Source of the DNA: Candidatus Magasanikiibacteriota bacterium
GTDB lineage: Bacteria; Patescibacteriota; Patescibacteriia; Magasanikbacterales; GWA2-37-8
Direction: 5' to 3'
Assembly: GCA_943357105.1 (NCBI GenBank)
Contig: CALRGC010000005.1
Location: 24,310-58,418, forward strand
Length of the DNA stretch: 34,109 nucleotides
In this document: piece by piece, positions 9,785 to 24,530 of the stretch
How positions within the stretch are numbered: the stretch's first letter is position 1
How the letters are laid out: each line of letters begins with the position of its first letter
Program-made: the position numbers and the translations under genes
Notes under the pieces: model-generated
Database searches by the model: none
The model's input: only the letters and a program-made list of their open reading frames with translations
What the model was told of the DNA's origin: nothing

Positions 9785-9854
9785 GCCATAAATCCTTTAA
9801 AATAGGCCAAAAAAGCCTATTTTTTTATCCCCATCTTTTCCACAATTATACCTC

Positions 9855-9883
9855 TTGACAACTTTAAGTGTTCATAGTATAAT
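9855..9883 (+). promoter_or_regulatory. consensus sigma70-type promoter upstream of leader RNA/23S
   Basis: TTGACA (9855-9860), 17 nt, TATAAT (9878-9883). Confidence 0.85.
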
Positions 9884-9889
9884 CCGCAT

Positions 9890-10115
9890 TACGTTTGAAT
9901 CTCCTAAAATTATTTAGGACCACGTCCAAAAGATAATGGTTGAAAGCGTACCCTTGGACCTCTGGGTTATACCGGCACTTAAGCCGGTAACCAAAAATTT
10001 AAAGACAATGTTTACATTGCAGTTAAATTCTTACTCAGAATATCCAAGTGGTTCATAAATACAGATCTTCATCTGATATTTTAGAGGGCCACTTGTAAGA
10101 GTGGCTCTTTTATTT
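9890..10115 (+). ncRNA. unclassified structured RNA or rRNA leader with attenuator-like 3' end
   Basis: Hairpins TCCTAAA/TTTAGGA (9902-9919), GTCCAA/TTGGAC (9924-9959), GGTT..ACCGGC/GCCGGT-AACC (9965-9992), CAATG/CATTG (10006-10019), CAGAT/ATCTG (10062-10075), GCCACT/AGTGGC plus U-rich tail (10088-10115). Confidence 0.65.
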
Positions 10116-11480
10116 TAAAAACTCAAACCAAAAATTGCTCTCAGATGATTGCGTTGAAAAATTTCAAAACAATCATCTGGTTGTAACGGAAAGAACTTTG
10201 ACAACTTAATAGGTAAATCAACGCAAAAATAGGGTAGGAAATATTTAATATTTCCCAATATAAAAATACCGCAAAGCACAATTAAGTGTTTTTGCCGTAC
10301 GCAATTTCAACAAGTGCACATGGTGGATGCCTTGACACTAAAAGACGAAGAAGGACGTTGCAGGGTGCGAAAAGTTCCGGAGAGGTCCCAAGCAACCATT
10401 GACCCGGAAATATCCCAATGGGGAAACCCTCGTGCTGATGAAGCACGAATCATTCACTGAATACATAGGTGGATGAAGTAAACCTGGTGAAGTGAAACAT
10501 CTCAGTAACCAGAGGAAAAGAAATCGAAGAGATTCCCTTAGTAGTGGCGAGCGAAAAGGGAAGAGTCTAAACTTTATAAATGTTGTTGCAGTGATTGGTT
10601 GGTCTCACGATTAACTTTGAACTGTAATTTAAAGAGATAGGTCGTTGTTTATAGAGTGTTGTAAGTCGTTAACGCTAATTTCCTACAAAATTAGGCGTCT
10701 AAATTGTTTAATAGCAGAATGTCTCTGGAAAGAGCAACCAAAGCAGGTGAAAGTCCTTTACGCGAAATTAAACAGTTTAACGTGGTTAGCGCACTTGAGT
10801 AGGGCGGGACTCGTGAAATTCCGTCTGAATTTGGGCCGACTATGGTCTAAGACTAAATACTTTTAGTGATCGATAGTGAATTAGTACCATGAGGGAAAGG
10901 TGAAAAGTAGCCCGGAGAGGGCAATGAAATAGTATCTGAAACCGTGTGCTTACAAAGAGCCGGAGCCCGCAAGGGTGACGGTGTTCCTATTGAAGAATGA
11001 GCCTGCGAGTGTGCTGTATGTCGTCGCTTAAGGACCTCTGGTCCGAAGGCATAGCGAAAGCGAGTCTGAAAGGGCGAAATTAAGATGGCATGCACATAAC
11101 CCGAAACCGGGTGGTCAACCCATGACCAGGTTGAACCTTGTAGAAATACAAGGGGAGGACCGAACTCACGAGCCGTGCAACACTCGGAGATGAGTTGTGG
11201 GTAGTAGAGAAATTCTAATCGAACTCGGTGATAGCTGGTTTTCCTCGAAATAGCTCTAGGGCTAGCCTTGCGCGTTCCTAATGCTGGTAGAGCACTGGAT
11301 GAGAATTGGGTCCTTCGGGATACCGTTTTCAATCAAACTCCGAATGGCATTGGTCACTAGCGCAGGAGTCAGACGGTGACGGCGAAGCGCCATCGTCAAA
11401 AGGGGAACAGCCCAGATCGCAAGTTAAGGTCCCTAAATCTATGTTAAGTGTAAAAGGTGGTGATAATTCTTATACAACCA

Positions 11481-11512
<32 letters not shown>

Positions 11513-12287
11513 GATAGCGTAACAGCTCACTGGTCAAGAGTTTTCGCGCCGAAAATGTACCGGGGCTCAAACATAGTACCGAAGCTGCGAAATGTAGTAT
11601 TCCTTCGGGAATATTACTTTGGTAGAGGAACGTTCTTAACGCACTGAAGCTCCAGACGCGAGTCAGAGTGGAGTGTTAAGAAGCGAGAATGCAGGCATAA
11701 GTAGCAAAAATCAAGGTGAGAATCCTTGACGCTGAAAATCTAAGGTTTCCTGGGCAACGAGAATCGTCCCAGGGTTAGTCGATCCTAAGGCCAGGCCGAA
11801 AGGCGTAACCGATGGAAGAGATGGTTAATATTCCATCACTGCGTATGGTTTGGTTTATAGTGCGCATTTTTGAAGCAGCAGCGTGACTAGAATTGCACGC
11901 GGCGCAAGCCAAAGACAAAGCCTTCGGGTGGAGTCAATTACTGTGGAGAATGTGCCCAGAAAAGCTATAAATCGTTAAGCCATAAGCAATCGTACCGGAA
12001 ACCGACACAGGTAGATAGGTCGAGAAGACCAAGGCGAACGAGAGAACCTTCGTTAAGGAACTCTGCAATACAGCGGCCGTAACTTAGGGATAAGGCCCGC
12101 CCCTCGAAAGAGGGGTTACAACAAATGACCCACTGCGACTGTTTACCAAAAACACAGCTCCCTGCAAAAGCGTAAGCTAAAGTATAGGGGGTGATGCCTG
12201 GCCAGTGTCAGAACGTTAAGAGGAGAGGTGCAAGCCTTGAATCGAAGCGCTGATGAACGCCGGCGGTAACTATAACCGTCCTAAGGT

Positions 12288-12574
12288 AGTGAATTCAAGT
12301 AATTGAGTCCACTAGGATTGGGACGAATTATAGCAAATAGTAAACAGTGCAAACATGATCCAGCAGAAGATCATACATCAACAGCCATTAAAAAAGCTGC
12401 CTTACTCACAGTAATGTGAGAGATAATCCGATCATAGCTATATGCTGGGAAATCCAGAAATGGACAATCAGCAGGGAAGACTTTGATTCATTTCAAAGAA
12501 CCCTCAGAGACCAAACGCTATGCTCCTAAGCAATTAGGATGAAGATAGAGTCCGTCGTAATAAAGGAAACGAAG
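12288..12574 (+). other. group I intron (ORF-less, 287 nt) in 23S at the E. coli-1931-type site
   Basis: Interrupts ctaaggt|agcgaaattcc; core elements P-like gctgggaaatcc, Q-like aatcagcagggaag, R-like ctcagagaccaaacg, S-like aagatagagtcc; U at the 5' exon end, G at the intron end. Confidence 0.9.
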
Positions 12575-13110
12575 AGCGAAATTCCTTGTCGGGCGAGTTC
12601 CGACCTGCACGAATGGCATAACGATGGTGGGACTGTCTCAACGAAGGACTCGGTGAAATTGCAAGGGAGGTGAAGATGCCTCCTACCCGTAACTAGACGA
12701 AAAGACCCCGTGAAGCTTTACTACAACTTGCTATTGATATAAGGATATTTATGTTCAGCGTAGGTGGGACCCGCAAGGGGCCAATGAGACACCACCCTTA
12801 AATATTTTTATGTCTAATTTTCTCCCATGAATCTGGGATAGAAGACAGTGGCTGGTGGGTAGTTTAACTGGGGCGGTTGCCTCCTAAAATGTAACGGAGG
12901 CGTTTACAAAGGTCAGCTTAGCTCGGATGGAAATCGAGCTGGACGCGCAAACGCAAAAGCTGGCTTTACTGCAAGGACTACGATCCGAGCAGTTACGAAA
13001 GTAGAAGTTAGTGAACCGACTACTCTTCATAGGAAGGTAGAAGATCAACGGATAAAAGCTACTCCGGGGATAACAGGCTGATCGCGCCCAATAGTCCACA
13101 TAGACGGCGC

Positions 13111-13151
<41 letters not shown>

Positions 13152-13182
13152 TAGAAGGTCCCAAGGGTTTGGCTGTTCGCCA

Positions 13183-13215
<33 letters not shown>

Positions 13216-13938
13216 AAATAACATTGCGTTACACCATAGAAATATGGTAGTATAGTACTGACTCATAACGGTGAAACCCTACTACAAATTCGAACTGTAA
13301 GTAGAGGGCAATACCGTGGGAAGGTCAATTTATGGCAAAAATTTTCTCAACAACAAAAGCCTATGTTGCCGGATTTTTAGACGGCGATGGCTGTATAATG
13401 TTTCAGTTGGTGCGAAGGAAAGATTATATCTACGGATTTCAGATTCGCGCGAGTATTGTTTTTTATCAAAAAACCATGCATCGCGACCACCTTGAGTGGA
13501 TCAAAAGAATTTTGAAACACGGATATATTCGAGATCGCAACGACGGCATGACAGAGTACACTATCGTTGGTTTTAAATCGGTAATTGAGGTCTTGAAATT
13601 TTTGCAACCATATATAAAAATGAAACGCGAACATGTAGAAGTCGCTTTGAAAATAAGCGCTATCATGTCCGGTAAATTTACCATTGAAAAAATGGTCAAA
13701 GCCGCGCGGTTCGTAGATCAATATCAGCAATTGAATTACTCAAAAAAAAGAGTAAACACTTCCAAAGTATTGATCGATTTTTTAGCGGAACATAAATTGT
13801 ACCCCTGTAACGACTGATCTCGATAATTTCGAGACGACGGATACCACGAAAAGTATCTGTAACACGTCAGCCCCTCCTTGGTGTTGTCCAAGAGGGTGAA
13901 GGTATAGTCTGTGCCATTAGTAATAATGGAATAACACG
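13216..13938 (+). other. group I intron (723 nt) in 23S at the E. coli-2593-type site, with homing endonuclease ORF
   Basis: Interrupts ggttcagaacgt|cgtgagacag; P/Q-like acggtgaaacccta and aataccgtgggaagg, R-like taacgactga, S-like aaggtatagtctg; terminal G. Confidence 0.92.
13332..13817 (+). CDS. LAGLIDADG homing endonuclease, I-CreI-like, single motif
   Basis: AYVAGFLDGDGCIMFQLV motif; GYIRDRNDGMTEYTIVG, LQPYIKMKREHVEVALKI and FVDQYQQLNYSKKRVNTSKVLIDFLAEHK parallel I-CreI segments. Confidence 0.93.
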   Translation: MAKIFSTTKAYVAGFLDGDGCIMFQLVRRKDYIYGFQIRASIVFYQKTMHRDHLEWIKRILKHGYIRDRNDGMTEYTIVGFKSVIEVLKFLQPYIKMKREHVEVALKISAIMSGKFTIEKMVKAARFVDQYQQLNYSKKRVNTSKVLIDFLAEHKLYPCND

Positions 13939-14321: not shown

Positions 14322-14435
14322 GTGTCTTGGTGACACAAGCGATGAGGTCACACCTGTTCCCATCCCGAACACAGCAGTTAAGCTCATCTGCGCCAATGAT
14401 AGCCGTAAGGCAAAAGTAGGCCGTCGCCAGGACAA
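14322..14435 (+). rRNA. 5S rRNA
   Basis: gtgtcttggtgac...cacacctgttcccatcccgaacacagcagttaagctc...gtaggccgtcgccaggac; ends approximate. Confidence 0.92.
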
Positions 14436-24403: not shown

Positions 24404-24435
24404 ACTACAAGCAAACTGTTCCCGTTTAAAACGGG

Positions 24436-24530
24436 CGAATCTTTCCCTAAATAGGGTCGGAATTAGCACCCTGGAGGGGGTTGCTGGGTGGTCGTAGGGC
24501 CGAATCCCTCGCACCGCTCTAGATAAATTT
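24436..24530 (-). promoter_or_regulatory. SAM-I-type riboswitch aptamer
   Basis: Minus strand atctAGAGCGGTGCGAGGGATTCGGCCCTACGACCACCCAGCAACCCCCTCCAGGGTGCTAATTCCGACCCTATTTAGGGAAAGAT: matches AGAG..GAGGGA..GGCCC..GCAACC..GGTGCTAATTCC; P2 loop TCGG complements J3/4 CCGA (pseudoknot); P4 CCCTatttAGGG. Confidence 0.85.

Follow-up and report, generated by a model that had tools for sequence, protein, structure and literature searches.

A probable translation-coupled attenuator in the leader of the unlinked 23S rRNA gene in Magasanikbacteria and other Patescibacteria

The leader of the 23S rRNA gene in a genome of the order Magasanikbacterales (925 kb in 34 contigs) probably acts as a translation-coupled transcription attenuator, similar in principle to those of the trp and tna operons. 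Read in this way, the sequence would place a 23S gene that is not linked to 16S under the control of a short open reading frame (ORF). Patescibacteria are very small bacteria, not in culture, that form a large group. The anatomy of the leader, its conservation and covariation, the geometry of its ORF and its specificity for 23S genes were established computationally. A first-pass annotation of the same DNA had recognised the two-state layout and overlooked the conserved short ORF at 10008-10058.

Layout of the 23S leader

The window, i.e., the whole stretch of 34,109 nucleotides that was analysed, contains the 23S and 5S genes. The only 16S copy found sits on a different contig, where it has a promoter and a boxA-like element of its own and is followed by a terminator; 23S is unlinked from 16S in this genome. 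The features are as follows, in positions of the window.

9855 to 9883, + strand: sigma-70-type promoter TTGACA-N17-TATAAT, 12/12 consensus matches, conserved in homologs
9902 to 9919, + strand: 5' hairpin TCCTAAAATTATTTAGGA, covarying helix 1, 4/4 pairs changed on both sides
9917 to 9928, + strand: strand 0, GGACCACGTCCA, near-invariant in homologs, its GUCC able to pair with GGAC of strand 1
9951 to 9969, + strand: strand 1, CCCTTGGACCTCTGGGTTA, the pairing partner of strand 2, specific to Magasanikbacteria; covarying helices 2 and 3, MFE structure
10008 to 10058, + strand: leader ORF, ATG...TAA, MFTLQLNSYSEYPSGS-stop, with the same geometry in 41/44 Magasanikbacteria and 38/45 other class leaders
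10031 to 10051, + strand: strand 2, encoding the last part of the peptide, with the antiterminator strand CAAGTGG (10045-10051) at its 3' end
10083 to 10116, + strand: intrinsic terminator (strands 3-4 and T-tract), hairpin at 10083-10110; helix 4, both-side changes in 6/9 pairs
10089 to 10095, + strand: strand 3, CCACTTG, left arm of the terminator and partner of the antiterminator
10142 to 10179, + strand: boxB-like hairpin CAGATGATTG...CAATCATCTG, preceding boxA (direct reading)
10193 to 10209, + strand: boxA-like GAACTTTGACAACTTAA, the same element as in the 16S leader of the host (GAACCTTGACAACA)
10300 to 13294, + strand: 23S rRNA gene, the putatively controlled gene (RF02541, 2069.9 bits)
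14326 to 14432: 5S gene (Rfam scan of the window)

The promoter matches the consensus at every position, as the first-pass annotation had stated, and scores 10-12 of 12 in 48/49 Magasanikbacteria leaders. Just 5' of it, an AT-rich sequence at about 9798-9826 reads directly as the terminator of the upstream Smr-domain gene, and read-through from genes upstream of the leader is therefore unlikely. Between the leader terminator and 23S, no good promoter was found in the window, in agreement with the earlier claim. Promoters of 10/12 or better occur in this interval in 1/45 regions of the class (2.3 expected) and in 7/45 of the Magasanikbacteria (2.9 expected), the best case (L008) arising from the TTGACA of the boxA-like motif; none is conserved across the class and Magasanikbacteria leaders. 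The TTGACA within GAACTTTGACAA was rejected as a 23S promoter, as it keeps no conserved distance to a -10-like box and the motif recurs in the 16S leader as boxA. The boxA-like motif is present in 31/45 class 23S leaders, compared to 2.1 in shuffles, and a hairpin before boxA is also found in the host genome's 16S leader.

Several other elements were observed. A group I intron match lies within the 23S gene (12379-12565), and an ORF for a LAGLIDADG endonuclease lies between 23S and 5S (13332-13814). The window's only riboswitch, a SAM riboswitch (RF00162) above the gathering score, is located on the minus strand at 24434-24529. The 16S gene (L056 1-4228, contig C3 of the host genome) is interrupted by an insertion, in which an ORF and a weak match to group II D1-D4 were seen. 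In its leader, about 200 nt upstream of 16S, an AU-rich hairpin and a T-run before boxA are terminator-like by rule; a leader ORF of the 23S type was not found at this hairpin. DnaA-box-like sequences (TTATCCACA) occur at 9825-9844 and cluster near rRNA promoters. An exact DnaA box is found near the 23S promoter in 30/49 Magasanikbacteria leaders (0.2 in shuffles), in 7/45 other class 23S leaders and also upstream of the 16S promoter in the host genome. Control of rRNA by DnaA is possible, judging from these sites.

Two exclusive structures and their homologs in the order

The leader RNA of the window folds far beyond its shuffles (z -6.1). In helices P0b, 1-2 and 3-4, 13 pairs are changed on both sides (45 cells), which was equalled in 0/500 shuffles. 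The local hairpin TCCTAAA/TTTAGGA (9902-9919), already seen in the first-pass annotation, corresponds to the conserved and covarying helix 1. The long-range pair 9901-9910/10078-10088, proposed there to close the whole RNA, is not conserved and found no support in relatives.

The reported perfect complementarity of CAAGTGG (10045-10051) and CCACTTG (10089-10095) is exact, and the terminator-like hairpin with its U-rich tail was recovered as hairpin 10083-10110 plus T-tract. The complementarity CAAGYGG/CCRCUUG is kept across 48 Magasanikbacteria homologs (mean z -2.5), with changes on both sides to UAAGCGG/CCGCUUA (L016) and CAAGCA/UGCUUG (L077, L078); weak antiterminators occur in a few homologs (L021, L086, L093). 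The covariation check suggested earlier thus found the alternative pairing conserved, and the two exclusive states, terminator and antiterminator, were borne out.

The folding of the nascent RNA was modelled. Naked RNA has a mean P(2-3) of 0.79, which rises to 0.98 when a ribosome occupies the start codon; a ribosome placed on the stop codon instead brings P(3-4) to about 1.0 in each of the 40 leaders. For the leader of the window, P(2-3) is 0.98 in the nascent RNA, and 1-2 plus 3-4 are favoured in the complete RNA at equilibrium. In Magasanikbacteria, strand 1 is able to sequester strand 2, and strand 0 is able to sequester strand 1. The untranslated state in this group may be OFF or ON, strand 1 sequestering strand 2 without any ribosome, and strands 0 and 1 (GGACCACGTCCA, CCUUGGACCUCUGGGU) may tune which untranslated state wins. 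The octamer ACCTCTGG (window region 9917-9969) is still present in family f7, whose leaders are shortened (L096, L097).

Homologs were searched by BLAST in relatives, a covariance model, a pattern scan of GTDB genomes and a second covariance model. The element was found in 51/86 genomes of the order, one copy each. Wherever the flank of a true homolog was inspected, 23S lay downstream. Among 26 order genomes without a match, 15 have an assembly without 23S; degenerate but recognisable versions occur in several non-matching genomes that bear 23S (L095, L098, L099, L100). The covariance-model matches L026 and L029-L034 and the pattern matches L050 and L054 were judged to be chance, being not near 23S or without the core motif.

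In the Rfam scan, at gathering and permissive thresholds, no family reached its cut-off in the leader region, which agrees with the earlier statement that no known class could be assigned. The best permissive match, BjrC1505, was rejected (24.7 bits where the cut-off is 50, and largely over the terminator). The covariance model of 6S RNA (RF00013) had no match at the leader region or in the genome. These results bear on another reading raised in the first-pass annotation, an independent small RNA, 6S-like or of another kind and about 220 nt long, whose position upstream of 23S is fortuitous. The element's own promoter and terminator would suit such an RNA, as would the lack of a 6S RNA elsewhere in the genome. 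However, all homologs with an examined flank lie upstream of 23S, no conserved promoter separates the element from 23S, and it is the attenuator design that is conserved class-wide, not the RNA sequence. A stand-alone RNA is therefore highly improbable, and the gating of 23S transcription by the element, the other reading put forward at the time, is the most likely one.

The leader ORF in the class and the phylum

In most Magasanikbacteria, the conserved block CAAUGUUUAC...UUACUCAGAnUAUCCAAGYGGU is readable as a short ORF. An ATG ORF of 8-20 codons with its stop 15-50 nt before the terminator is present in 41/44 leaders, compared to a mean of 5.8 and a maximum of 14 in shuffled leaders; the sequences are related, hence this test is not independent on its own. 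The homologous leader peptides include MFTITTTFYSDHPSG-stop (L011), MFTKNIKYSESLSG-stop (L016) and MMYSRTISYSQYPSG-stop (L017), and YSxYPSG is conserved among them. In the homologs L083 and L071, a leader ORF of the expected type was not found. Good Shine-Dalgarno sequences are mostly missing 5' of the leader ORF.

In other families of the class, the RNA sequence of the leader is unrecognisable and not alignable; the design is retained. A unit was defined as a promoter with at least 9/12 matches that precedes an intrinsic terminator by 30-230 nt. By this rule, with consensus-based promoter and terminator calls, 45/58 class 23S leaders consist of a promoter, about 100 nt and a terminator; 13/58 are without such a unit, L124 and L116 being short leaders with no terminator. 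An ATG ORF of 10-20 codons with its stop 18-36 nt before the terminator is found in 38/45 units; 500 rounds of shuffling gave 3.1 on average and at most 9. The leaders with an ORF span about 30 family-level groups, and in the second-fetched batch the ORF is present in 26/26 units. As controls, 592 other genome windows gave 22 units and 3 ORFs, and 30 16S leaders of the same class gave 9 units and 0 ORFs. The ORF and distance thresholds were chosen after the pattern had been seen; the effect and the controls are large.

The antiterminator is retained as well. Pairing of the ORF-end segment with the left arm of the terminator far exceeds that of shuffled class leaders (mean z -2.4, 27/45 below -2), and the sequences have changed yet stayed complementary (UUCAGCGAC/GUCGCUGAA, CGUGUCCA/UGGACACG, CUUAGCGGAU/AUCCGCUAAG). 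As in an attenuator, antiterminator and terminator are conserved and mutually exclusive, and the ribosome position overlaps the antiterminator strand, as the stop codon is found where strand 2 ends and precedes the terminator by 18-36 nt. A constitutive partial terminator that merely sets the 23S dose, with ORF and antiterminator incidental, would fit a terminator that is strong and often favoured by equilibrium folding. Nevertheless, the position and length of the ORF and the covariation of the antiterminator are far above chance and specific to 23S leaders, which leaves this explanation very little probability.

The survey also bears on the riboswitch suggested in the first-pass annotation, in which the 5' domain (strands 0-1-2) would sense a small molecule and control the terminator before 23S. 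In Magasanikbacteria, this domain is highly conserved, covarying and in competition with the antiterminator. Elsewhere in the class, however, it is absent or unrecognisable, and ORF, antiterminator and terminator persist. Moreover, the conserved strand 2 is largely coding, and the leader has no match to an Rfam riboswitch. A ligand-binding riboswitch seems very improbable; the sensor is most likely the translated leader ORF, not a ligand aptamer.

The class peptides (n=40; 38 from ATG ORFs and two with GTG starts) are exactly 13 amino acids long in 23/40 cases. Their last residue is Gly in 28 and Pro in 5 (33/40), compared to 7.5% Gly/Pro among the remaining short ORFs of these regions. The Gly bias is partly forced by GCGG in strand 2, and peptides ending in Pro occur where the strand 2 sequence differs. 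Release of the peptide is reported to be notably inefficient when the last residue of the chain is Pro or Gly (PMC7246954, citing Pierson et al. 2016). Repeated codons or residues for one amino acid shared among the leader peptides of the class and the Magasanikbacteria were not found, and amino-acid-specific attenuation of the trp type was rejected because codon runs are absent from these peptides.

Were the leader peptide a specific arrest peptide of the TnaC or ErmCL kind, it would sense a drug, a metabolite or the release-factor state via the exit tunnel, not general ribosome availability. The usual 13-codon length and the Ser-Gly-stop at the C-terminus, with its Gly or Pro bias, are compatible with such a peptide, as is the YSxYPSG of Magasanikbacteria. 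In contrast, the first ten residues are free to vary between the families of the class, the ends differ (Gly, Pro, other), and the SG pattern is partly imposed by strand 2. An arrest peptide is thus considered unlikely.

For other classes of the phylum, the small sample gives a sketch rather than a survey. Similar units precede 23S in L172, L183-L185, L187, L190 and L193, and among those only L172, L184, L185 and L193 have a strong antiterminator too. The leader peptide of L193 is MLYFICFILQRSG-stop; in L188, GTG...KKGVSG-stop followed by a terminator was read by eye. The unit is absent in the sampled genomes that have a tRNA spacer of the sort found in linked rRNA operons (L171, L174, L176, L179).

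Proposed mechanism and known systems

From the arrangement of these elements, we infer translation of the ORF, function of the terminator, which way control acts and to which physiological signal it responds. RNA polymerase would start at the perfect promoter and make a leader with an ORF of 13-16 codons, the last of which (strand 2, CAAGYGG) could base-pair with strand 3 (CCRCUUG), the terminator's left arm. Should strand 3 emerge while strand 2 is unoccupied, the 2-3 antiterminator would form, and transcription would continue through boxA into 23S. A ribosome that has reached the leader stop codon after translation would cover strand 2, so that 3-4 forms and transcription stops; the terminator begins about 25 nt downstream, just beyond the ribosome's footprint. 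The occupancy of strand 2 would last longer where the peptide, ending in Gly or Pro, is released slowly. Abundant, efficient ribosomes would turn 23S synthesis off, and scarce or slow ribosomes would allow it, a direct negative feedback. In Magasanikbacteria, the additional upstream strand 1 would compete for strand 2.

Translated-leader attenuation is textbook knowledge for biosynthetic operons. The trp, his and pheA attenuators of enteric bacteria likewise have a short ORF and overlapping strands 1-2-3-4, with a 2-3 antiterminator opposed to a 3-4 terminator, and the position of the ribosome decides. In contrast to them, the gene concerned here is 23S rRNA and not a biosynthetic operon, the leader has no run of codons for one amino acid, the ORF ends in strand 2 instead of lying in strand 1, and full translation is proposed to lead to OFF through masking of strand 2. 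In the tna operon, too, a ribosome at the leader stop codon (that of TnaC) decides, and slow release keeps the RNA covered. However, tna masks a Rho site and depends on an inducer (Trp), whereas an antiterminator strand before an intrinsic terminator would be masked here, with no inducer known.

The rrn antitermination systems of E. coli and B. subtilis (boxB-boxA, NusB/NusE) resemble the present leader in the boxA-like GAACYTTGACAA between terminator and 23S, which is also found in the 16S leader. Here, however, the intrinsic terminator lies upstream of boxA, and the boxA complex therefore cannot account for passage of the leader terminator. Ribosome feedback in E. coli acts mainly at the promoter level (ppGpp, NTPs). 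It shares with our proposal that translating ribosomes lower rRNA synthesis (Nomura), whereas a leader ORF and a terminator in cis are proposed here.

To our knowledge, no rRNA gene is known to be under leader-peptide control, and a search of the open-access literature found no case of translated-leader attenuation controlling ribosomal RNA. For Patescibacteria with unlinked rRNA genes in general, we lean slightly towards the view that the leader of about 13 codons, with its slow-release Gly/Pro stop, serves to sense, in cis, functional ribosomes or release capacity, setting 23S rRNA synthesis by direct feedback without promoter control of the ppGpp type. If true, it would be a simple, cis-encoded form of ribosome feedback, an idea long debated, and would explain how rRNA supply is matched to ribosome demand in minimal cells with one unlinked 23S copy.
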